Position numbers and translations under genes: made by a program. Shown in pieces: positions 1 to 12,260 of a stretch of DNA of 64,000 bases. Position 1 is the first letter of the stretch. The number at the start of each line of letters is the position of its first letter. The notes beneath the pieces are model-generated. The model saw only the letters and a program-made list of their open reading frames with translations, made no database searches and had not been told where the DNA came from. Origin of the DNA: Eubacteriales bacterium (lineage in GTDB: Bacteria > Bacillota > Clostridia > Oscillospirales > Acutalibacteraceae); assembly GCA_029225565.1 (NCBI GenBank), contig JAQXWS010000038.1:1-64000 (forward strand), written 5' to 3'.

Positions 1-156
1 AGCGGCTTAGACATCTAATGATGAATCTAAGCCGCTTTTGGCGTTTTTCGTTTTTTGCTCAGTCGAGGTACCATCGTACATCTTCCTTCGCAAGAAAACG
101 AAATTCAATCCCATTTCTCGAAGTCTGTCAGCGTGTAGAAAAAGTGGGTTGAACCA
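1..156 (+). mobile_element. MITE-like repeat copy A (cut by window start); right-end sequence fused directly to a left-end-like fragment
   Basis: Bases 1-140 match the 3' part of copies B, C and E (AGCGGCTTAGACATCTAATGATGAATCTAAGCCGCT...TTCTCGAAGTCTGTCAGCGTGTAGAA). Bases 141-156 AAAGTGGGTTGAACCA match the left end of the same element. Confidence 0.8.
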
Positions 157-178
157 TCTGCTTTTGCAGATGGCTTTT
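154..178 (+). terminator. intrinsic terminator-like hairpin CCATCTGC-tttt-GCAGATGG followed by T tract
   Basis: 8-bp inverted repeat followed by CTTTTT. Confidence 0.6.
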
Positions 179-265
179 TAATTTTTTGTAAACGCATTGT
201 AAATCTTTGTCCGTTCTGTTGTATCCCCGTGTTGGGTATGATATATTCCTGTTGGAGGGATAGAT

Positions 266-1045
266 ATGACCGGAACAAAATCTGTTATTATTCGCGTAAT
301 TATTCTGTTATTGGCAATACTTTTACTATTGGCATACATAGGCCCTTTGATTACAGTGGGAGAACTGAATTTGGGCAATATTTTCGGCTACTGTGTTGCA
401 GGCTTGGTGGCTGTGTATTCAGCCTTTATGAATAAGATTAACACAAAAATTGTGCAGCTTTGGAGCCAAAAAAGGGGAAGAGTCGGTGTGAGCATAGTGT
501 GCGCCCTTTTGATGCTGGGACTGGTGTATTTTGGAACTCTATTTGGTATGATTGCAAATTACAGCAAAACAGATAGTGCCCGCAGTCAGGTGGTTGTTGT
601 TCTGGGTTGTAAGGTGGTTGGCGAGAAACCCGGGGTATTCCTTAGGCAAAGAATCAATACGGCATACAATTACCTACAGGACAATCCCGATGCTGTTGCA
701 GTCCTTTGCGGCGGACAGGGCAGCGACGAAAATATCAGCGAGGGTCAATGTATGTACAACGCTTTGGTTGATATGGGCGTATCACCACAGCGATTGTATG
801 TTGAGAATCAATCCACATCAACGCAGGAAAACTTTATGTTTGCCCGACAATTGCTTGATAAGCAGGGGATTACTGCAAAGGAAATTACCGTGGTTACTCA
901 TGATTTTCACCAATTCAGGGCCTCTCTGTACGCAAAGAAATATGGGTTTGTTACTCACAGTATGCCCGCCAAAACACCATGGTCGGGGTACATTACCTTT
1001 GTTACCAGAGAGATATTTGCAGTAACAGCGATGATATTAAAATAA
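266..1045 (+). CDS. YdcF/SanA-like (DUF218) membrane protein
   Basis: N-terminal TM segments; VVVLGCKVVGEKPGVFLRQRINTAYNYL and AVLCGGQGSDENISEGQCMYNAL motifs typical of the YdcF family. Confidence 0.85.
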   Translation: MTGTKSVIIRVIILLLAILLLLAYIGPLITVGELNLGNIFGYCVAGLVAVYSAFMNKINTKIVQLWSQKRGRVGVSIVCALLMLGLVYFGTLFGMIANYSKTDSARSQVVVVLGCKVVGEKPGVFLRQRINTAYNYLQDNPDAVAVLCGGQGSDENISEGQCMYNALVDMGVSPQRLYVENQSTSTQENFMFARQLLDKQGITAKEITVVTHDFHQFRASLYAKKYGFVTHSMPAKTPWSGYITFVTREIFAVTAMILK

Positions 1046-1069
1046 GGAACGGTGCTCCGTTCCTTATTT
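1044..1069. repeat. left copy of 26-bp terminator-containing direct repeat flanking MITE copy B
   Basis: AAGGAACGGTGCTCCGTTCCTTATTT versus right copy 1353-1378 AAGGAAAGGTGCTCCGATCCTTATTT (2 differences). Confidence 0.85.
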
Positions 1070-1352
1070 CAGACTGTCGATAAAGTGGGTTGAACCACGC
1101 CAAATAATATAATGTTTAACCGATTTCTGCCTCTCTTGAGTAAAGAAAGGTGGGTGCGATTATCGCACTTGGAAAGATTGTAAAAGCGGCTTAGGCATCT
1201 AATGATGAATCTAAGCCGCTTTGGCGTTTTTCGTTTTTTGCTCAGTCGAGGTACCATCGTACATCTTCCTTCGCAAGAAAACGAAATTCAATCCCAATTC
1301 TCGAAGTCTGTCAGCGTGTAGAAATTTATAATTTGACTTATTCTACACGCTG
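1070..1352 (+). mobile_element. MITE-like repeat copy B (283 bp)
   Basis: CAGACTGTCGATAAAGTGGGTTGAACC...TTCTACACGCTG; same sequence recurs at 6723, 9646 (inverted) and 10921. Confidence 0.88.
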
Positions 1353-1378
1353 AAGGAAAGGTGCTCCGATCCTTATTT
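1353..1378. repeat. right copy of 26-bp terminator-containing direct repeat flanking MITE copy B
   Basis: AAGGAAAGGTGCTCCGATCCTTATTT. Confidence 0.85.
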
Positions 1379-1382
1379 TTTG

Positions 1383-3131
1383 CTATTTTGTTGGGAATTG
1401 AGAATTGTACAGAGTATAGTAGAATCCTTTTTTCTTCAGCAGTTCCTTATGAGTGCCCTGCTCCACAATGTTGCCGTCATTCATTACCAATATGATGTCG
1501 GCTTCCTTGATGGTAGCCAGTCTGTGAGCCACAATGAATGTTGTTCTGCCCTCCATCAAAGTGGCAAACGCCTTTTGAATTTTTATTTCTGTGCGGGTAT
1601 CAATTGATGATGTCGCCTCGTCCAGTATAAGCATTGGGGGTTTGCACAGCATCAATCGTGTGATACACAGCAGCTGCTTTTGTCCGGCTGACAGACTGCC
1701 TCCGTCCTCGCCTATTATGGTGTCATATCCCTGTGGCAAACGCTTTATAAATGAGTGTGAGTGTGCCTTTTTTGCCGCTTGGATTACTTCCCGGTCCGTG
1801 GCGTCCGGGGCTCCAATCTTGATATTATCGCGTATTGTGCCGGATTTTAGCCATGTTTCCTGCAGCACCATACCGTAACTGAATCTTAGGGACTTCATAG
1901 TAATGTCGTTGTAGTCCCTGCCGTCCAGCAGTATATGTCCGCTGTCAGGGTCGTAAAATCGCATCAGCAGATTGATAAGTGTGGTTTTGCCGCAGCCTGT
2001 GGGTCCCACAATAGCCACTCTTTGTCCTGCTTTAACGGATAGATTAAAGCTTTCAATCAGCTTCTTGCTCTTTGTGTAGGAAAAGCTGACGTTCCTTATT
2101 TCAAGATTACCGTCAACATTGGTGATTTCCACAGCGCTCTCTTTATCGGGCGCTACGCTTTCTTCTTCCAGAAGCTGCAGCAGTCTTGCAGCGCAGGCTA
2201 TGGCGTTTTGCAATTCGGTTACTACGCCGCTGATTTCGTTAAAGGGCTTTGTATATTGGTTTGCGTATGCCAAAAAGCAGGTCAGCACTCCTACGGTGAT
2301 GGCGCTCTGGTTCGTCTTTACCGCCAGCAATGCGCCGCATAGGGCAACAGCTGCATATACTATTGCGTTTACAAATCTTGTTGCCGGGTTTGTAATGGAC
2401 GAAAAGAATGTTGCCTTTAGCGAATATCCACGCAATCTCTCGTTGATTTCGTCAAACTTGGCTATATTTTCGTCATCGTGACAGTAGGCATATACTACCT
2501 TTTGGTTGCCTATCATCTCGTCAATAAAGGATGTTTGCTCGCCTCTGGTTTCGCTCTGGAGCTTGAACATTGTATATGTTTTTTTTGCCACAAAGCCGGC
2601 GATAAAAAATGACAACGGAGTAATTATAACCACTACCAGCGTAATCCAGATGTTGATACTCAGCATAAAGCAGAGAGTACCGACGATGGTGACAACACCG
2701 GTAAAAAATTGGGAGAATCCCATCAGCAGTCCGTCGGCAAATTGGTCCACATCGGCAATTACCCGCGACACAATCTCGCCGGCAGGGTGGGAGTCGATGT
2801 AACTGATAGGCAGGGACTCTATTTTTGTAAATGCTCTTTGGCGCATATCCCTTACTACATTAAAGGTGATTTTGTTATTGAGCACATTCATTATCCATTG
2901 GCACAGAGCTACTGCCGCTATGATGGCACAAATTTCAACAAGAATCTTAACAATCTCTTTCAGCTCAACAATTCCCGTGCCGATTATTCTGTCTATGGCA
3001 TTGCCTACCAGCACCGGTACGTACAATGTGCCGGCAACGCTGACCAGCGCCATCAGCATGGATAACACCAGGTGGATTTTGTATCTGCCGATATATGACA
3101 GCACCTTTTTGATAACAACCTTGTTACCCAT
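1383..3131 (-). CDS. ABC transporter, fused permease/ATP-binding protein (heterodimer partner 1)
   Basis: TM domain; Walker A GPTGCGKTT, signature LSAGQKQLL, Walker B LILDEATSS. Confidence 0.93.
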   Translation of the reverse strand: MGNKVVIKKVLSYIGRYKIHLVLSMLMALVSVAGTLYVPVLVGNAIDRIIGTGIVELKEIVKILVEICAIIAAVALCQWIMNVLNNKITFNVVRDMRQRAFTKIESLPISYIDSHPAGEIVSRVIADVDQFADGLLMGFSQFFTGVVTIVGTLCFMLSINIWITLVVVIITPLSFFIAGFVAKKTYTMFKLQSETRGEQTSFIDEMIGNQKVVYAYCHDDENIAKFDEINERLRGYSLKATFFSSITNPATRFVNAIVYAAVALCGALLAVKTNQSAITVGVLTCFLAYANQYTKPFNEISGVVTELQNAIACAARLLQLLEEESVAPDKESAVEITNVDGNLEIRNVSFSYTKSKKLIESFNLSVKAGQRVAIVGPTGCGKTTLINLLMRFYDPDSGHILLDGRDYNDITMKSLRFSYGMVLQETWLKSGTIRDNIKIGAPDATDREVIQAAKKAHSHSFIKRLPQGYDTIIGEDGGSLSAGQKQLLCITRLMLCKPPMLILDEATSSIDTRTEIKIQKAFATLMEGRTTFIVAHRLATIKEADIILVMNDGNIVEQGTHKELLKKKGFYYTLYNSQFPTK

Positions 3132-4851
3132 TTGCCGTCACCTCCTCCTGGGAGAATTGCGAGTCGTATATTTCTTTATATACCTCACAGCTTGTCAGTA
3201 ATTCCTCGTTGGTGCCCATACCTACGCACTGGCCGTCATCCAGCACTATGATTTTGTCGGCAGTCAGCATTGACGAGCATCTTTGGGATACAATAAACAG
3301 GGTGGGCTTGTAATCCAGATTTAGTATTGCCTCACGCAACGCCTTTTCTGTAGCAAAGTCCAGGGCAGATGAGCTGTCGTCCAGTATCAGTATTTCCGGC
3401 TTGCCTACCAGCGCTCTGGCAATGGTCATTCTTTGCCTTTGACCACCGGACAAATTTGAGCCGTACTGCTCAATCTGTGTATTCAGTCCGCCTTTTTCGT
3501 ATATAGTATCATACACTTGGGCCGTCTTTAACGCCCGGTCAATTTCCTCATCCGTGGCGTTGGCATTGCCCCATTTGATATTTTCCCTCACAGTTCCCTT
3601 AAACAGTACAGCCTTTTGCATAACAAAGCCAATGTGCCTACTGATTTCTTCCTTGGTGTAGCTGCGTACATCACGACCCAGCACAGTAACCTTGCCCTGC
3701 GTGCAATCGTAGTAGTGAGGTATCAGATTAACCAGCGATGACTTGCCGCTTCCGGTTGAGCCGATAACACCTATTACCTCACCTCTGTCTGCAGAGAATG
3801 TGATATTGCTAAGGCTTTCGTCACCGGCATTTTTGTAGGTCAGCGATACATTATCAAAGGATACGGCATGGCTGTCCACAACAGCGGTATCGTTGCTTGC
3901 TTGCAGGGTATTGTCCATATCCAGAACGGCGGCGATTCTGTCGCCGGATGCAAAGCCCTTTGTGATGGTAACAATCAGGTTGGCAAATTTGATTAGCTCA
4001 ACAAGGATTTGGCTCATATAGTTGTATAGCGCTACCACGCTGCCCTGGGAGAGTGAGCCTCCGTTTACTCTCAGCGCGCCGTAGTGAATCAGCCATACTA
4101 TACCCAGATTGATTACAATATACGTCACAGGATTCATCAGTGCAGATATTCTGCCGACCTGCCTTTGAAAATGCGCCAGCAAATCGTTTTTTGCCTTGAA
4201 TCTTGAAAGCTCTTGTTCTTCTTCTGTAAAGGCTCGTATTACCTTAGCGCCGTTTAGGTTTTCTCTGGTGGCGAGGGTTACATCGTCCAGAGTGTTTTGC
4301 ACCCTTTTGTACATGGGTACGGTCAGCTTCATTATGGTTGCTACTATTACTGATAGTGATGCAATGACAATCAGGAATATCAGCCCTGCCTTTATATCTA
4401 TCATCAGCGCCATAAACAGCGCGCCGCCTACAATGAACGGGGAGCGCAGGAACAGGCGCAGCGTCATATTTACACAGCTTTGTGCCTGATTGACATCGGT
4501 TGTCAGTCGGGTGATTAATGTGGATGTGCCTATTCCGTCTATTTCGTTAAAGGAAAAACCCTGGATTTTTTTGAACAGAGATTGCCTTAATTCGGCAGAA
4601 AAGCCTGTAGCAGCCTTTGCGGCAAAGTATTGTGCAGTAATGGCGGCAATCATACCTACAATGGCCAATGCAACCAGAATTGCAGAGTTTTTTAGTACAG
4701 TTGCTGTACTGCCTGCTCTGATGCCGTCATCGATAATTGCAGCTACCACAAGGGGTACAATTAACTCAAATATTGCCTCCAGCATCTTGAACAGGGGAGC
4801 CATTACAGATTCTTTTTTGTAGTTTTTTAGGAATACTAACAATTTTTTCAT
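3124..4851 (-). CDS. ABC transporter, fused permease/ATP-binding protein (heterodimer partner 2)
   Basis: Walker A GSTGSGKSS, signature LSGGQRQRM, degenerate catalytic site LILDDSSSALD; overlaps the downstream partner ORF. Confidence 0.93.
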   Translation of the reverse strand: MKKLLVFLKNYKKESVMAPLFKMLEAIFELIVPLVVAAIIDDGIRAGSTATVLKNSAILVALAIVGMIAAITAQYFAAKAATGFSAELRQSLFKKIQGFSFNEIDGIGTSTLITRLTTDVNQAQSCVNMTLRLFLRSPFIVGGALFMALMIDIKAGLIFLIVIASLSVIVATIMKLTVPMYKRVQNTLDDVTLATRENLNGAKVIRAFTEEEQELSRFKAKNDLLAHFQRQVGRISALMNPVTYIVINLGIVWLIHYGALRVNGGSLSQGSVVALYNYMSQILVELIKFANLIVTITKGFASGDRIAAVLDMDNTLQASNDTAVVDSHAVSFDNVSLTYKNAGDESLSNITFSADRGEVIGVIGSTGSGKSSLVNLIPHYYDCTQGKVTVLGRDVRSYTKEEISRHIGFVMQKAVLFKGTVRENIKWGNANATDEEIDRALKTAQVYDTIYEKGGLNTQIEQYGSNLSGGQRQRMTIARALVGKPEILILDDSSSALDFATEKALREAILNLDYKPTLFIVSQRCSSMLTADKIIVLDDGQCVGMGTNEELLTSCEVYKEIYDSQFSQEEVTANG

Positions 4852-4961
4852 ACAATTTACCTCATTAGGATATTATACAGAAAAATATAAATTAGTCAAA
4901 TTTGTATTGCAATTGATGTTGGTTATGGTATAATCACCTTGATAATTAGAGAGGTGATTTT

Positions 4962-6272
4962 ATGGAGCAAAAACCTGTTACTGCTATTATTGTCGGCGCC
5001 GGACACAGAGCCTTTGTTTACAGCGAATTGGCTGTTACCAATCCCGATATGCTCAGGATTGTCGGCGTTGCAGACCCTAATCCCGTCAGACGCCAAAAGG
5101 CAATGGAGCACTTTGGATTCGGAGAGGATATGTGCTTTGAGAGCGCAGACGAACTTGCCAAGAGAGGCAGAATTGCCGACACCGTCATCAACGGCACTAT
5201 GGACGAGCAGCATTTGGAGACTGCTTTGCCACTGCTGAATTTGGGCTATGATATGCTGTTAGAAAAGCCCTTTGCAGTCAACGAGAGCGAAATGAGACAG
5301 CTTGTGGATTGCGCAAAAAAGAATAATTCCAAGGTTATGATATGTCATGTTCTGCGATATACACCTTTCTATTACGGTATAAAAGAAATTGTTAACCGCG
5401 GAGAGATTGGCGATATTATCAATATTCAGACCACCGAGCATGTTAGCTATCATCATTTGTCAACCTCCTATGTGCGCGGCAAGTGGGCAAACAGCGATAA
5501 GTGCCACACCACAATGCTGCTGGCAAAGTGCTGCCACGACCTGGATATTATGATGTGGATGATGAGTGAGACCCAACCTCGCAAAATTTCTTCCTTTGGC
5601 GGCAAGTATCAGTTCAAGCCCGAGAACGCCCCAAAGGGCGCAGGCACAATTTGTATGAAGGATTGTCCGCTGGTTGATACCTGCGTATATAGTACCAAAA
5701 GACTGTATATTGACCATCCGGACAGATGGTCATTTTATGTGTGGGATGCGCTGGAGGGCATTGATAATCCTACTATTCAGGACAAGATTGCATTGATGAA
5801 ATCCGATAATCCTTATGCTCGTTGTATCTACAAGTGCGACAACAATGTTGTGGACCACCAGTCCGTTATGGTGGAGTTTGAGTCAGGCGCAACCGGTACC
5901 CACAATATGGTTGGAGGCTCTGCCGAGCCACGCAGAAATATACATATCATCGGTACAAAAGGCGAGATATTCGGCAATTTTGAGGAGAGCAAGTTCACTG
6001 TACTGAAGATTAATCCGTCACCCGATGCACACAACGAGGAGTGCGATGTCGAGGTCCACGACCTCAAGGTATCCGGAGATATGGTGGGTGCTTACGGCGG
6101 ACACGGTGGAGGCGACCAGCGACTTGCAGCCGATTTTGTAAAGTTTATTCGCGGCGAGGAGCCGTCATTGGCTTGCACCTCTATATTTGATAGTGTAGCG
6201 GGTCATCTCAGCGTTTACCTTGCCGATGACTCCCGTGAGAACGGCGGCACACCGCAGAATGTAAACATATAG
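4962..6272 (+). CDS. Gfo/Idh/MocA-family oxidoreductase
   Basis: N-terminal VGAGHRAFVYSEL nucleotide-binding region; EKPFAVNESEM motif (EKP typical of the family). Confidence 0.88.
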   Translation: MEQKPVTAIIVGAGHRAFVYSELAVTNPDMLRIVGVADPNPVRRQKAMEHFGFGEDMCFESADELAKRGRIADTVINGTMDEQHLETALPLLNLGYDMLLEKPFAVNESEMRQLVDCAKKNNSKVMICHVLRYTPFYYGIKEIVNRGEIGDIINIQTTEHVSYHHLSTSYVRGKWANSDKCHTTMLLAKCCHDLDIMMWMMSETQPRKISSFGGKYQFKPENAPKGAGTICMKDCPLVDTCVYSTKRLYIDHPDRWSFYVWDALEGIDNPTIQDKIALMKSDNPYARCIYKCDNNVVDHQSVMVEFESGATGTHNMVGGSAEPRRNIHIIGTKGEIFGNFEESKFTVLKINPSPDAHNEECDVEVHDLKVSGDMVGAYGGHGGGDQRLAADFVKFIRGEEPSLACTSIFDSVAGHLSVYLADDSRENGGTPQNVNI

Positions 6273-6341
6273 GAGATTATATCTATACCGTTTAAAATAA
6301 AGGCTTTGGTGATTATAGAGTAATTGACAAGGTAAAAATAG

Positions 6342-6563
6342 GTGATTGATATGGATAAAACTATCAGAAATAGTCTTGAAAACAGTCTGAGAAAAGTATT
6401 TGATGATGACGAATTTGTTATGTGTGTTATATCACATTTGACAACGGATGAACAACGCAAGGCTTTTATTGGCCATATTAAAAACAATCCCAAAATTACA
6501 TCTGAGGAAATAACTCTAATGTCAATATCTACTTATAGAAATGAATTTAGCACTTTGCAATAG
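6342..6563 (+). CDS. hypothetical small protein (73 aa)
   Basis: ORF MIDMDKTIRNSLENSLRKVF..., followed by a terminator hairpin that overlaps its stop codon. Confidence 0.55.
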   Translation: MIDMDKTIRNSLENSLRKVFDDDEFVMCVISHLTTDEQRKAFIGHIKNNPKITSEEITLMSISTYRNEFSTLQ

Positions 6564-6578
6564 CAAGGTGCTATTTTT
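6549..6578 (+). terminator. terminator AGCACTTTGC-aata-GCAAGGTGCT + ATTTTTA
   Basis: 10-bp stem (one G-T pair) followed by T-rich tract; contains the stop codon of the 73-aa ORF. Confidence 0.7.
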
Positions 6579-6603
6579 ATGCATAAATTTAATAGTTGAT
6601 TAG

Positions 6604-6633
6604 GCACTTTGCTGTATGCAGGGTGTTTTTTTC
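6604..6633 (+). terminator. second, related terminator GCACTTTGC-tgtat-GCAGGGTGT + T7
   Basis: 9-bp stem with G-T pairs followed by TTTTTT. Confidence 0.65.
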
Positions 6634-6692
6634 ATATTCTCGGCAGAGATATAAAATGCCATCATGAGGGTTCAAGTCCGATTATATTAAAT

Positions 6693-6722
6693 AAAGCAGT
6701 CACTCAAAAGAGTAACTGCTTT
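6693..6722. repeat. left copy of 30-bp direct repeat (tRNA-Leu terminator hairpin) flanking MITE copy C
   Basis: AAAGCAGTCACTCAAAAGAGTAACTGCTTT, identical at 7011-7040 and again at 7211-7240. Confidence 0.9.
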
Positions 6723-7010
6723 CAGACTGTCGATAAAGTGGGTTGAACCACGCAAAATAATACAGTATTTAACCGATTTCTGCCTCTCTTGAGTAAAGAA
6801 AGGTGGGTGCGTTTTATCGTACTCGTAGATATTGTAAAAGTTGCTTAGACATCTAATGATTAATCTAAGCCACTTTTTTGCGTTTTTCGTTTTTTGCTCA
6901 GTCGAGGTACCATCGTACATCTTCCTTCGCAAGAAAACGAAATTCAATCCCATTTCTCGCAGTCTGCCAGCGTGTAGAAATTTATAATTTGACTTTTTCT
7001 ACACGCTGAA
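6723..7010 (+). mobile_element. MITE-like repeat copy C (about 286-288 bp)
   Basis: CAGACTGTCGATAAAGTGGGTTGAACCACG...TTCTACACGCTGAA; same family as copy B. Confidence 0.88.
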
Positions 7011-7040
7011 AAAGCAGTCACTCAAAAGAGTAACTGCTTT
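7011..7040. repeat. right copy of 30-bp direct repeat flanking MITE copy C
   Basis: identical to 6693-6722. Confidence 0.9.
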
Positions 7041-7183
7041 ATTTGGTGCGGAAGAAGGGACTTTCGTCGTAACAAACTCCGTGATTGGAGCCAAAAGCAA
7101 GCTTTTGCTAATAATCACTTCATTTGTTACTCCTCTCAAAAACTGCCGTACAGTAGTGCGTCAGTTTTTGTGTTTTTTATTGT

Positions 7184-7263
7184 GAGGGTTCAAGTCCGAT
7201 TATATTAAATAAAGCAGTCACTCAAAAGAGTAACTGCTTTATTTGGTGCGGAAGAAGGGACTT
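7184..7263. repeat. intact copy of an 80-bp direct repeat (tRNA-Leu 3' end + terminator + inverted tRNA fragment); the other copy is 6666-6722 plus 7041-7063, split by MITE copy C
   Basis: GAGGGTTCAAGTCCGATTATATTAAATAAAGCAGTCACTCAAAAGAGTAACTGCTTTATTTGGTGCGGAAGAAGGGACTT present in both. Confidence 0.85.
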
Positions 7264-7329
7264 GAACCCTCATGAACTTGCATTCACTAGAACCTGAATC
7301 TAGCGCGTCTGCCATTCCGCCACTTCCGC
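7244..7329 (-). tRNA. tRNA-Leu (anticodon CAG), CCA encoded
   Basis: Reverse strand GCGGAAGTGGCGGAATGGCAGACGCGCTAGATTCAGGTTCTAG...GGGTTCAAGTCCCTTCTTCCGCACCA; long variable arm; anticodon loop TTCAGGT. Confidence 0.95.
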
Positions 7330-7527
7330 AAGTGCTCATATATATTATCACATCCTTTTTGATTTGTCAAAGGGTTTTTAATCATTTGTAAAAAAAATCA
7401 TATTGAGGCGAGTAATGTATTGCCCAATTAGTAAAAATTCAACTTGTATTTGCTAATTATGTTTGCTATAATATTGTCGCAAATTTATAGGAGAGGAATA
7501 GCAGATAATTTCTGTTTAGGTTTAATT

Positions 7528-8934
7528 ATGGGCGGATTTTTTGGCGTAGCATCCAAAGAGGATTGCGTTTTTGACCTGTTTTTCGGTGTGGATTACCATT
7601 CTCATTTGGGTACCCGCAGAGCAGGTCTTGCGGTTTACAGCAAAGAGAATGGTTTTGACAAGGCGATACACAATATCGAGAATGCCCCTTTCAGAACAAA
7701 GTTTACAAAAGAGTCCAACTCCATGCACGGCGAGCTGGGTATCGGCTGTATAAGCGATTTTGAGGCTCAACCCATCTTGGTTAGGTCACATCACGGTACA
7801 TTTGCTATCGCAACCGTGGGCAAGATAAACAATAGCGACGAAATTGTAGAAGAAATCATAAAGGGCAACACCCATTTTTTTGAGATGCAAGGCGGCGATA
7901 TTAACCAGACCGAGCTTGTTGCGTCGATTATTAACCAAAAAGATAATTTTATCGACGGAATTCGTTATGCACAAGATATTATCGACGGCTCAATCAGTAT
8001 GCTGATTCTCACACCTATGGGCATATATGCTGCCAGGGACAAGCTGGGCAGAACTCCGATTTCTATCGGCAAAAAAGAGGACGGCTACTGTGCGGCGTTT
8101 GAGAGCTTTTCTTATTCCAATTTAGGATATGATTCACATAAGGAATTAGGACCCGGCGAGGTGGTTGTTATGACTGCCGACAGCGTAAAAACGCTGATTC
8201 AACCCGGCGATAAAATGCGTATATGCACATTCCTTTGGGTATATTACGGTTACCCCTCTGCCAGCTATGAGGGTATCAGCGTAGAACAAATGAGATATAA
8301 CTGCGGTCGGGCTTTGGCAAGACGCGACAATGCTAAGCCGGATGTTGTTGCCGGTGTTCCCGATAGCGGTATCGCTCACGCAATAGGGTATTCAAATGAG
8401 GCGCATATTCCATACTCCCGTCCGTTCGTAAAGTACACTCCTACTTGGCCCCGTTCATTTATGCCTACTAATCAGTCAAAGCGCAATTTGATTGCAAAGA
8501 TGAAGTTGATTCCTATTCAGGATTTGATAGAGGACAAAAGTCTGCTGCTTATCGACGACTCCATTGTTCGCGGTACTCAACTGAGGGAAACCACAGAGTA
8601 TCTGTTTTCCAGCGGAGCAAAGGAGGTTCACATAAGAACGGCTTGCCCGCCGTTGTTTTACGGCTGCAAGTACCTTAATTTCTCCCGTTCCACCTCCGAG
8701 ATGGAGCTGATAACCAGGCGGGTAATTAAAGAACTTGAGGGTCGCGACCCCGATGACGCTGTTATTCAGGAGTACATTGACCCCGACAGCGAAAAGTATC
8801 AGCGTATGGTGGAGGAGATAGGCAAACAGCTTCACTTTACATCCTTGCGTTATCACAGACTTGACGATATGATAGACTCGGTGGGCATCGACGCCGACAA
8901 GCTTTGCACCTATTGTTGGGACGGAAGAGAATAA
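7528..8934 (+). CDS. amidophosphoribosyltransferase (PurF)-like protein; start reassigned to MGGFFGV
   Basis: HLGTRRAG glutaminase-domain motif; PRPP-binding LLLIDDSIVRGTQLRET; C-terminal CTYC. The longer ORF from 7444 adds an unlikely leader. Confidence 0.85.
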   Translation: MGGFFGVASKEDCVFDLFFGVDYHSHLGTRRAGLAVYSKENGFDKAIHNIENAPFRTKFTKESNSMHGELGIGCISDFEAQPILVRSHHGTFAIATVGKINNSDEIVEEIIKGNTHFFEMQGGDINQTELVASIINQKDNFIDGIRYAQDIIDGSISMLILTPMGIYAARDKLGRTPISIGKKEDGYCAAFESFSYSNLGYDSHKELGPGEVVVMTADSVKTLIQPGDKMRICTFLWVYYGYPSASYEGISVEQMRYNCGRALARRDNAKPDVVAGVPDSGIAHAIGYSNEAHIPYSRPFVKYTPTWPRSFMPTNQSKRNLIAKMKLIPIQDLIEDKSLLLIDDSIVRGTQLRETTEYLFSSGAKEVHIRTACPPLFYGCKYLNFSRSTSEMELITRRVIKELEGRDPDDAVIQEYIDPDSEKYQRMVEEIGKQLHFTSLRYHRLDDMIDSVGIDADKLCTYCWDGRE

Positions 8935-8944
8935 TTGTTGCTGA

Positions 8945-8972
8945 CAGGTGGTGAAAACCGCCTGTTTTTGCT
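8945..8972 (+). terminator. intrinsic terminator ACAGGTGG-tgaaaa-CCGCCTGT + TTTTT
   Basis: stem-loop with T tract just after the purF-like stop. Confidence 0.75.
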
Positions 8973-9120
8973 ACATATTGCACAATAATATTTGTTATAT
9001 ACTACTTATTGTGCTTTAATATGTAGAATATAACTAAAAAATATTGATTTTCTCTTAGCAATGGATTATCATTATCCCATAATGTGGAAGGCCCACAATA
9101 TGAAGAAAGGATAATTAATT

Positions 9121-9606
9121 ATGGCTACAAAAAAGACAGATGCTGCAAAGAAGGCAGTAAAGGACGAGGTTAAAAAGACAACTAAGGCTGTTAAAGAGAC
9201 TGCCGCTAAAACCGAAAAGGCAGTAAAGGAAGAAGCAAAGAGCACAGCCAAAGCTGTTAAGGAAACTGCTGCAAAGGCTGAGAAAACTGTAAAGGAAGCA
9301 GCAAAGAAGACAGAAAAGAAAGTGGAAAAGAAAGTAGAAAAGGCTGTAGAAAAGGCAGAAAAGAAGACCGAGAAAAAGGCTGCCGCACCAAAGAAGTCAG
9401 CCAAGAAGTCTGCACCCCAGGTTTACTTTGAATTTGCCGGCAAGCAGATTGACCCTGCAAAGGTTGTAGAGGATGTAAAGGCTGCCTATGTTGCAGGCGG
9501 CAACAAGGAATCTGCTATCAGCTCCGTAAAGGTATATGTTAAGGCAGAGGACAGCGCGGCTTACTTTGTTATCAACGACAAGGATACAGGCAAGATTGTA
9601 CTTTAA
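9121..9606 (+). CDS. Lys/Ala-rich histone H1-like N-terminus with DUF6465-like C-terminal domain
   Basis: Repeated KAVKETAAKAEK-type blocks, then QVYFEFAGKQIDPAKVVEDVKAAYVAGGNKESAISSVKVYVKAEDSAAYFVIND. Confidence 0.8.
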   Translation: MATKKTDAAKKAVKDEVKKTTKAVKETAAKTEKAVKEEAKSTAKAVKETAAKAEKTVKEAAKKTEKKVEKKVEKAVEKAEKKTEKKAAAPKKSAKKSAPQVYFEFAGKQIDPAKVVEDVKAAYVAGGNKESAISSVKVYVKAEDSAAYFVINDKDTGKIVL

Positions 9607-9619
9607 TGTAAATTATCTG

Positions 9620-9645
9620 TGACGGATAGCATTTGCTGTCCGTCT
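9620..9645. repeat. left copy of exact 26-bp terminator duplication flanking MITE copy D
   Basis: TGACGGATAGCATTTGCTGTCCGTCT, identical to 9935-9960. Confidence 0.95.
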
Positions 9646-9934
9646 CAGCGTGTAGAAAAAGTCAAATTATAAATTTCTACACGCTGACAGACTTCGAGAA
9701 ATGGGATTGAATTTTGTTTTCTTGCGAGGGAAGATGTACGATGGTACCTCGACTGAGCAAAAAACGAAAAACGCCAAAAGCGGCTTAGATTCATCATTAG
9801 ATGTCTAAGCCGCTTTTACAATCTCTACAAGTGCGATAAATCGCACCCACCTTTCTTTAATCAAGAGAGGCAGAAATCGGTTACATATTTTACATTATTT
9901 GGGGCGTGGTTCAACCCACTTTATCGACAGTCTG
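9646..9934 (-). mobile_element. MITE-like repeat copy D (289 bp, inverted orientation)
   Basis: CAGCGTGTAGAAAAAGTC...ACTTTATCGACAGTCTG; reverse complement of copies B, C and E. Confidence 0.92.
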
Positions 9935-9960
9935 TGACGGATAGCATTTGCTGTCCGTCT
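9935..9960. repeat. right copy of exact 26-bp terminator duplication flanking MITE copy D; followed by TTTT
   Basis: TGACGGATAGCATTTGCTGTCCGTCT; hairpin GACGGATAGC-attt-GCTGTCCGTC. Confidence 0.95.
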
Positions 9961-10021
9961 TTTTGTTTACAACCAAAGCTTTTTGTGCTACAATCTGGAT
10001 ATAAATGATTTGAGGTGTAGT

Positions 10022-10885
10022 ATGAAAAAGATAGTTTCATTGTTTATGAGCGTTGCGCTGCTTCTGTCCCTGCTTGCCGGATGCTCCAAAACAGAGCAAT
10101 ATACCGTAGAGCTTGATGTAAAGGCCGGAGATATTTCTGTTGTGTCCTACAATGTTGCCGCCCCTTGGGGGAATCTGAAGCAGGGTACAAGCGCTCAGCG
10201 TGTAAAACGATTTGCCGCTTATATGAATGCAGTCAGTCCTGACACAATCGGTACCCAGGAGATGAATCAATACTGGATGGATAAGCTGGAAGAACTTATG
10301 CCTGCCTACGATTCCTACGGTATTCCCCGCGGTGGCGACGAGAACGAAAAAAAGAGCGAGATGAACTCCATCTTTTGGCGCAAGGATAAGTTCAGGTGTG
10401 TGGATTGCGGTACCTTTTGGCTTTCGGAAACAATTTATGACGAAAGCAAATATGAGGGCGCCGGATGTAACAGGATTTGTTCGTATGTTGTATTGGAAGA
10501 TAAGAATACAAAAAAGCAGTTTATTCACCTTAACACACATCTTGACAACGCAAGCGAAGATGCCAGGGAGTTCGGTGCGCAAACAATTATGGACACCATT
10601 GAGCTGATTACAGACCGCCATCCCCAGGCAAAGATTGTACTGACCGGTGATTTCAATGATGTTGAGGGCTCTAAGCCATACAATATTGTATCAGCTCAGT
10701 TCAAGGATTGCGCCAAGTCAAATGAGGCTAACGCTGGTCCCACATACACCGACTGGGGCAATAAAGAGTCAATTATCGACTTTGTGTTTACTGACGCCGA
10801 GCCCGTTGATTATTTAGTCCTCGATATGAATAAGGATGGCTTTGTGTCAGACCATAACGGCGTTTTTGCTATGATTAATTTGTAA
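10022..10885 (+). CDS. secreted lipoprotein, endonuclease/exonuclease/phosphatase family
   Basis: Lipobox LLAGCSK; VSYNVAAPWG, GTQEMNQYW, LTGDFNDVEGS, FVSDHNGV motifs of the EEP superfamily. Confidence 0.87.
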   Translation: MKKIVSLFMSVALLLSLLAGCSKTEQYTVELDVKAGDISVVSYNVAAPWGNLKQGTSAQRVKRFAAYMNAVSPDTIGTQEMNQYWMDKLEELMPAYDSYGIPRGGDENEKKSEMNSIFWRKDKFRCVDCGTFWLSETIYDESKYEGAGCNRICSYVVLEDKNTKKQFIHLNTHLDNASEDAREFGAQTIMDTIELITDRHPQAKIVLTGDFNDVEGSKPYNIVSAQFKDCAKSNEANAGPTYTDWGNKESIIDFVFTDAEPVDYLVLDMNKDGFVSDHNGVFAMINL

Positions 10886-10898
10886 AAATTTTTGTTTT

Positions 10899-10918
10899 GC
10901 CACGGGTTTTACCGTGGC
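10899..10918. terminator. terminator hairpin GCCACGG-gtttta-CCGTGGC abutting MITE copy E
   Basis: 7-bp inverted repeat directly after the EEP-family gene; MITE left end starts 2 bp later. Confidence 0.7.
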
Positions 10919-10920
10919 AT

Positions 10921-11511
10921 CAGACTGTCGATAAAGTGGGTTGAACCACGCCAAATAATATAATATGTAACCGATTTCTGCCTCTCTTGAGTAAAGGTGC
11001 GGGTCTCCGGTGGAGACCTCTGCACGAATGTGCAGAAGCACCGACCGAACCGGCAGGCGAGACGGTGGGGGCGATTTATCGCAGTTGTAGAGATTGTAAA
11101 AGCGGCTTAGACATCTAATGATGAATCTAAGCCGCTTTTGGCGTTTTTCGTTTTTTGCTCAGTCGAGGTACCATCGTACATCTTCCCTCGCAAAAAACGA
11201 AATTCAATCCCATTTCTCGCAGTCTGTCAGCGTGTAGAAATTTATAATTTGACTTTTTCTATACGCTGACAGACTTCGAGAAATGGGATTGAATTTCGTT
11301 TTCTTGCGAGGGAAGATGTACGATGGTACCTCGACTGAGCAAAAAACGAAAAACGCCAAAAGCGGCTTAGATTCATCATTGGATGTCTAAGCCGCTTTTA
11401 CAATCTCTCTGAGTGCTATAAATCGCACACACCATTCTTTACACAAGTGAGGCAGAAATCAGTTACATATTATATTATTTGGCGTGTTCAACCCACTTTA
11501 TCGACAGTCTG
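10921..11511. mobile_element. MITE-like repeats E and F arranged head-to-head as a 591-bp palindrome sharing one central hairpin
   Basis: Begins CAGACTGTCGATAAAGTGGGTTGAACCACG and ends ...TTCAACCCACTTTATCGACAGTCTG; centre TCAGCGTGTAGAAATTTATAATTTGACTTTTTCTATACGCTGA. Confidence 0.88.
10996..11063. other. GC-rich structured insertion inside MITE copy E (three-way-junction fold)
   Basis: Absent from copies B, C, D and F; GGTGC[GGTCTCC-ggt-GGAGACC][TCTGCAC-gaat-GTGCAGA]GCACC pairing. Confidence 0.7.
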
Positions 11512-11536
11512 AAAGCCGGTCATATAGACCGGCTTT
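11512..11536. terminator. terminator hairpin AAAGCCGGTC-atata-GACCGGCTTT abutting MITE copy F
   Basis: 10-bp inverted repeat with flanking A/T tracts, downstream of the minus-strand gene 11589-12260. Confidence 0.75.
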
Positions 11537-11553
11537 ATTCTTGCATAAAACAA

Positions 11554-11575
11554 AGCCCTGAAATGAATCAGGGCT
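11554..11575 (-). terminator. terminator-like hairpin AGCCCTGA-aatgaa-TCAGGGCT
   Basis: 8-bp inverted repeat directly downstream of the minus-strand gene 11589-12260. Confidence 0.6.
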
Positions 11576-11588
11576 AATATATTTGGTA

Positions 11589-12260
11589 TTAGTTTTTGTC
11601 AGTTGTGAACTCAAGAAGCTCATCATTATGGAATGTCAACGGTGCGTACTCTCCGTTCTTCTCGATATATACGGCGGACAAATTGCTTGCAACAGCATAC
11701 TTTTTGCCACCTGCAGAGAACATATAACACTCAGAGTTATTAACATTACCCTTGCCGGTGTTGTTGATGGAACCGGATGATGGGTCGCTCTTGTATCCGA
11801 TTGTGTACCAGTTGTCGTGGAGTACCTGCTTAAGCAATTCTTTAGCTTCGGCTACGCTGTATGTAGGTGTTGTGGTAATCTCATGCTGATTTTCGTATCT
11901 GTCATATACGGCAGCAGCAGATGGGCCCTCCTCCTCAGGCGGAGCAACAGCCGGTGCAACATAATTGAACCACATAATAAGGAAGTAGATAAGATACGCA
12001 ATCAACAGAAGAAGAATTACCATCTTAACTATCTGCTTTGCCTTATTATCTGTGTTTGCTGCAAAAGCCTCTTCCTGGGTAGGAATCTCAATCGGTACAA
12101 ATGGCTTGCCCTTCTTTGCGGCCTTTTTTTCTGCCTTTGCGTTCTTTTTATTAATGTTCTTAACAAGCTTTTCGTACTGTTTTGCTTGCTGCTTTTCTAA
12201 CTTAGCCGCTTTTTTTGCAGCCTTCATTTCTTTTTTTGCAAGTTTGGATTCTTTACTCAA
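11589..12260 (-). CDS. hypothetical single-pass membrane protein with long Lys/Ala-rich coiled-coil N-terminus
   Basis: KKEMKAAKKAAKLEKQQAKQYEKLVKNINKKNAKAEKKAAKKG, TM IVKMVILLLLIAYLIYFLIMWF. Confidence 0.6.
   Translation of the reverse strand: MSKESKLAKKEMKAAKKAAKLEKQQAKQYEKLVKNINKKNAKAEKKAAKKGKPFVPIEIPTQEEAFAANTDNKAKQIVKMVILLLLIAYLIYFLIMWFNYVAPAVAPPEEEGPSAAAVYDRYENQHEITTTPTYSVAEAKELLKQVLHDNWYTIGYKSDPSSGSINNTGKGNVNNSECYMFSAGGKKYAVASNLSAVYIEKNGEYAPLTFHNDELLEFTTDKN

Follow-up and report, generated by a model that had tools for sequence, protein, structure and literature searches.

How does a short, non-coding mobile element come to lie between two complete copies of a transcription terminator? 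The question is raised by the window, the 64,000-nucleotide stretch of DNA that was analysed, which belongs to a 1.76-Mb draft genome of a Eubacteriales bacterium (G000). Here the 26-mer TGACGGATAGCATTTGCTGTCCGTCT, a complete terminator hairpin, occurs in exact copies at 9620-9645 and 9935-9960 that directly abut a 289-bp element on both sides. This exact duplication, first reported in a sequence-only reading, was confirmed, and two more copies of the element in the window are arranged similarly (Table 1). The upstream gene encodes DUF6465 (domain match, E 4e-25), and the first hairpin copy begins 13 bp 3' of its stop codon. A GC-rich hairpin and a U-tract just after the stop codon form a rho-independent terminator at 9935-9965. 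When folded as single-stranded DNA, TGACGGATAGCATTTGCTGTCCGTCT formed a 10-bp stem (-8.5 kcal/mol, z -5.8), and none of the shuffled sequences folded equally well. The exact pair of hairpins around the element is not due to chance.

The element is short, non-coding (the longest stop-free stretch is 59 codons) and multicopy, with about 40 copies in G000, and has imperfect terminal inverted repeats and a target-site duplication (TSD), which place it among the MITEs. The folded MITE region was far more stable than its shuffles (z -12.6). Only tRNA was found by an Rfam scan of window positions 1-12000, with no match for the MITE, which is thus not a known RNA family.

Table 1. Features of the window that bear on the MITE insertions
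Feature	Position	Strand	Remarks
MITE copy	1..171	-	cut by the start of window and contig
Second MITE copy (1070-1352) with flanking hairpins	1044..1378	-	between 26-bp hairpin copies with 2 mismatches
Third MITE copy (6723-7008) with flanking terminators	6691..7040	-	between two tRNA-Leu-region terminators AAAGCAGTCACTCAAAAGAGTAACTGCTTT, 30 bp exact
Paralogous empty site	7183..7263	+	single hairpin; all 81 bp match the joined flanks of copy 6723-7008
DUF6465 gene	9121..9606	+	PF20069; its terminator is the insertion target
TSD copy 1	9620..9645	+	complete hairpin TGACGGATAGCATTTGCTGTCCGTCT, without the original U-tract
MITE	9646..9934	+	289 bp, non-coding; ends CAGCGTGTAGAAAAAG...TTTATCGACAGTCTG
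MITE left-terminal palindrome	9646..9686	+	41 bp; its end matches the IS right end
MITE central palindrome	9776..9817	+	AAAAGCGGCTTAGA...TCTAAGCCGCTTTT; itself terminator-like
TSD copy 2	9935..9960	+	same hairpin, with the original U-tract (TTTTTG) after it
Compound of two inverted MITE copies	10921..11511	.	copies share the left-terminal palindrome; different hairpin on each side

The repeat around the third MITE copy can be read as 30 bp exact or as 32 bp with one mismatch. This copy lies in a region (6665-7263) where the 3' end of a tRNA-Leu gene (7244-7329, minus strand) and its terminator are tandemly duplicated, one terminator copy being filled by the MITE and the other empty. Duplication was not seen at every copy in the window, as the compound element has unlike hairpins on its two sides. 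Within the compound, a few element bases give way to roughly 65 bp of additional GC-rich sequence (10997-11063), which is also present in the copies L029/L041 and L032.

The sequence-only reading had explained the hairpin pair by insertion at the terminator with a long TSD that leaves a full hairpin on each side. Alternatively, the pair may have pre-existed as tandem terminators, with the element inserted between them and no TSD formed, an origin that would suit the two unlike hairpins found at about 25 of the 87 copies surveyed below. One-hairpin empty alleles argue against such an origin. In the window, the empty site at 7183-7263 carries a single hairpin; precise loss of a MITE by hairpin-hairpin recombination would look identical. 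The 342-bp one-hairpin joined flank of an Enterococcus faecium plasmid copy was matched by 85 plasmid records, each spanning at least 80% of it; among the matches listed, the empty-site records aligned in one piece over 100%, and one that was read out had exactly one hairpin. The other site, in E. faecalis, was matched in one piece by 11 plasmid records, and one of these that was read out likewise had one hairpin. DUF6465 orthologs in congeners carried one terminator each, and no element-free ortholog with two hairpins occurred. None of 81 congeners yielded a strict ortholog of the DUF6465 locus that shared its terminator sequence, the best orthologs having approximately 50-62% protein identity. 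In one congener (G059, locus L263), the DUF6465 ortholog was accompanied by a related element in the opposite orientation and by a hairpin duplicated at two differences; judging from these sequences, the DUF6465 terminator was probably hit independently there. We regard pre-existing tandem terminators as extremely unlikely. Insertion with a long TSD agrees both with the one-hairpin empty sites and with a congener insertion sequence (IS), described below, that has a whole-terminator TSD.

Throughout G000, 45 of 50 distinct intact MITE ends abutted a palindrome (score of at least 4, with the flank starting inside the palindrome), compared to 2% of shuffled flanks, so that copies without flanking hairpins were not the majority. 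The five remaining ends comprised the two inner ends of the compound element, two degenerate hairpins just under the score, and one end of the copy L028, at which there was no hairpin. Ten full-length copies retained both flanks; tallied manually from the printed flanks, eight had matching hairpins, some of these differing at one to several positions, and two (L002 and L004) had two unlike hairpins. Several truncated copies lacked the left end together with part of the left hairpin, a pattern that later deletions would be expected to produce. It could be argued that the hairpins are part of the element and are carried along with it, particularly as a 41-bp palindrome forms the left end of the MITE. 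However, the flank sequences in G000 vary from copy to copy yet are palindromes, and at almost every copy the flanking hairpins are unrelated in sequence, which leaves this explanation with next to no chance of being correct.

Related MITEs were present in 48 of 99 genomes searched, all within the genus. Exact whole-hairpin repeats flanked congener MITEs at L277 (25 bp), L062 (31 bp), L055 (27 bp), L051 (26 bp) and L284 (24 bp). A compensatory change (AAAGAGG..CCTCTTT vs AAACAGG..CCTGTTT) separates the two repeat copies at L054, and the pair at L066 is similar; these changes suggest that both hairpin copies may be selected to fold. The elements also varied internally. L015, L028 and L033 carry the central 42-bp palindrome (element positions 131-172) in the opposite orientation to that of the reference copy. 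A further copy, L038 (G000 C10:39148-39416), is a near-perfect palindromic derivative with two right halves that is still flanked by a diverged hairpin duplication, and from its structure two right ends seem to be enough for transposition.

A link to IS1182-group transposases had been suggested from the long, palindrome-associated repeats, and this was borne out by an autonomous IS1182-family IS with matching ends in a congener. The IS (L078, the same element as L124 in GTDB) is 1599 bp long and carries a transposase matching NF033551 (IS1182; E 6e-123, 411 bits vs a cut-off of 270), with matches to PF05598 and PF13751 as well. It is bounded by CAGACTGTCGAAAAAGTC on one side and, reading inwards, by CAGACTGTAGAAAAACC on the other. 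Of 17 terminal bases compared, 16 agree between the MITE right end and the IS left end, and 13 between the MITE left end and the IS right end. This IS is flanked by two exact copies of a 26-bp terminator, AAGGATGCGGTTTTCACCGCATCCTT. Another IS1182 transposase, at L075, was rejected as a partner of the MITE, since its ends are unrelated and have no end motif in common with it. IS1182-type transposases were detected in 10 of 81 congeners, and in G000, which is 91% complete, there was no match to PF13751 or to the IS1182 transposase profile. The enzyme moving the MITE copies of G000 was presumably an IS1182 transposase that acted in trans and has since been lost or lies in the unassembled part of the genome. 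It is highly probable that the window element is an IS1182-derived MITE that inserts at terminators and other palindromes, with a whole-hairpin TSD, by way of an extruded hairpin or cruciform.

For transposases with a fixed active-site pair, a fixed stagger is normal and TSD length is near-constant. We compared repeat and palindrome lengths across the family, using a profile built from three such IS1182 transposases that yielded 80 loci in GTDB genomes. IS ends were fixed first and TSDs then taken from the flanks, and palindrome length was measured on one flank, independently of the other. The scored set comprised 87 non-identical IS and MITE copies, mostly from draft assemblies. Flanks started in a palindrome with a score of at least 6 in 68 of the 87, as opposed to 0.2-0.3% of dinucleotide shuffles. 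Direct repeats of at least 16 bp were present in 51 copies, and all were 20-64 bp long. In 49 of these 51, repeat and palindrome differed in length by no more than 1 bp (Spearman rho 0.98). The longest, at L192, was a 64-bp TSD corresponding to a perfect 30-bp stem. The hairpin-long duplication of the earlier reading stood, and the length rule, by which the repeat equals the palindrome over 20-64 bp, was only implicit in it. Direct repeats of the IS1182 family are reportedly 0-60 bp in the ISfinder family table, which, if right, would make long repeats in themselves less novel.

In Chakrabartyella piscis, whose genome is complete, nine copies of one IS were located at different hairpins, and their TSDs measured 20, 22, 23, 25 and 31 bp, among others. 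Outside the Clostridia, TSDs followed the same pattern, measuring 22 bp in Enterococcus faecium, 21 bp in E. faecalis, 19 bp in Bacillus, 30 bp in Sutcliffiella and 20 bp at ISEfa7. An ordinary staggered cut with a long, structure-independent stagger could also place elements beside hairpins, if selection against other insertions enriched for them, and such selection is plausible because insertions do least harm at gene ends. No result supported a fixed stagger. TSD length is beyond the reach of selection, and it equalled palindrome length across the whole 20-64 bp range; nor is a fixed stagger compatible with the several TSD lengths produced by the single C. piscis IS. We consider a fixed stagger followed by selection very unlikely. 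The MITEs, and autonomous IS1182 elements whose ends are of the CAGnCTGTCGAAAAAG type, are located at rho-independent terminators or other palindromes and are flanked by whole-palindrome repeats, and the length of the repeat, the single-palindrome empty site and the family of the transposase are established by these comparisons.

TSD sequences were unrelated between most copies, indicating that no common primary sequence is recognised. A U-tract was present on at least one side at 45 of the 51 TSD sites. Pairing extended 1-9 bp past the TSD in 33 of the 51 copies, and the TSD began with A and ended with T in 39, indicating that the cut falls close to the foot of the longest possible stem but not in every case precisely there. 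Its exact position may depend on a weak local preference or on junction migration. About 25 of the 87 copies had two unrelated complete hairpins, and IS1182 copies with an unlike complete hairpin at each end include L115, L119, L123, L161, L183 and L190, among others. These two-hairpin copies could result from recombination between copies, from the two ends having been joined to separate targets, or from misassembly. At one E. faecalis plasmid locus (L289), the loops of both TSD copies read TTTTT and that of the empty site (L293) reads AAAAA; at L280 and L008, the two TSD copies resemble each other more closely when one of them is reverse-complemented. Such inverted loops suggest strand switching or cruciform processing at palindromes.

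For the joining reaction we infer a cruciform, joining at its 5' feet, and gap repair. The transposase would recognise an extruded hairpin or cruciform in the target, and both 3' ends of the transposon would be joined to it, one to each strand, where the opposing hairpins have their 5' feet. At the four-way junction these feet would be close together, though 20-64 bp apart on linear DNA. Gap repair would then copy each single-stranded hairpin, giving a complete hairpin on each side. A single-stranded target, on the lagging strand or in an R-loop, could instead form one hairpin that is then copied, with no double-stranded cruciform involved. Hairpins form readily in single strands and are recognised as single-strand structures by IS200/IS605 elements, and the loop inversions between hairpin copies also point to strand switching. 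The transposase, however, is a DDE enzyme (PF13751, PF01609) and not an HUH enzyme, and the orientation of the IS relative to the U-tract showed no bias (14 vs 13). Moreover, repeats of the full hairpin on two sides follow simply from symmetric joining on both strands. A single-stranded target is therefore considered unlikely.

Targeting of hairpins has precedents in this family. IS1272/TnSha1, another IS1182-family member, targets stem-loops, frequently those of terminators, and shows no preference for a primary sequence (Furi 2016, PMC4923244; Wan 2017, PMC5678879), and deletes or replaces the stem-loop without a TSD (PMC4923244, PMC5678879). The elements described here share the family and the stem-loop targeting, but duplicate the whole stem-loop; replacement of the IS1272 type was rejected for them, as the whole stem-loop is kept on both sides and empty sites have one copy. 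A hypothetical 'pathway b' in Fig. 13 of Wan 2017 (PMC5678879), in which joining occurs at the 5' feet of a cruciform, was predicted to duplicate the entire stem-loop; this predicted product is exactly that observed here, and the pathway was assigned to no element. ISCbo5, an IS1182-family element of C. botulinum group III, was described in gene-end hairpins that are probably transcription terminators (Skarin 2011, PMC3098183); its sites resemble those found here, and the main text gives no duplication rule. ISPse1 of Paracoccus, likewise of the IS1182 family, has a 4-bp direct repeat (PMC3281130), indicating that the family is heterogeneous in its TSDs. A plasmid copy of ISEfa7, an IS1182-like element of Enterococcus faecium that is autonomous, unlike the MITE, has the 20-bp hairpin TSD GCTGTCTGTGAGGACAGCTT. 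Hairpin targeting by IS1182 members has thus already been published, and whole-hairpin duplication appears previously to have been only a branch of a hypothetical model.

Taken over all copies, we think it probable that a Bacillota-wide subgroup of IS1182 DDE transposases reads the structure of its target and not the sequence, and that joining of fixed geometry at the cruciform feet lets the palindrome set a TSD of 20-64 bp. TSD length varies threefold here among related elements and equals the target palindrome. A structure-reading DDE transposase is thus directly testable, and would naturally complement the deletion seen with IS1272. In practice, hairpin-length direct repeats can flag IS1182-derived MITEs, and the enzyme could serve as a tool for placing DNA at terminators. 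That every insertion leaves a complete hairpin on both sides may also explain how tens of copies are found at gene ends.
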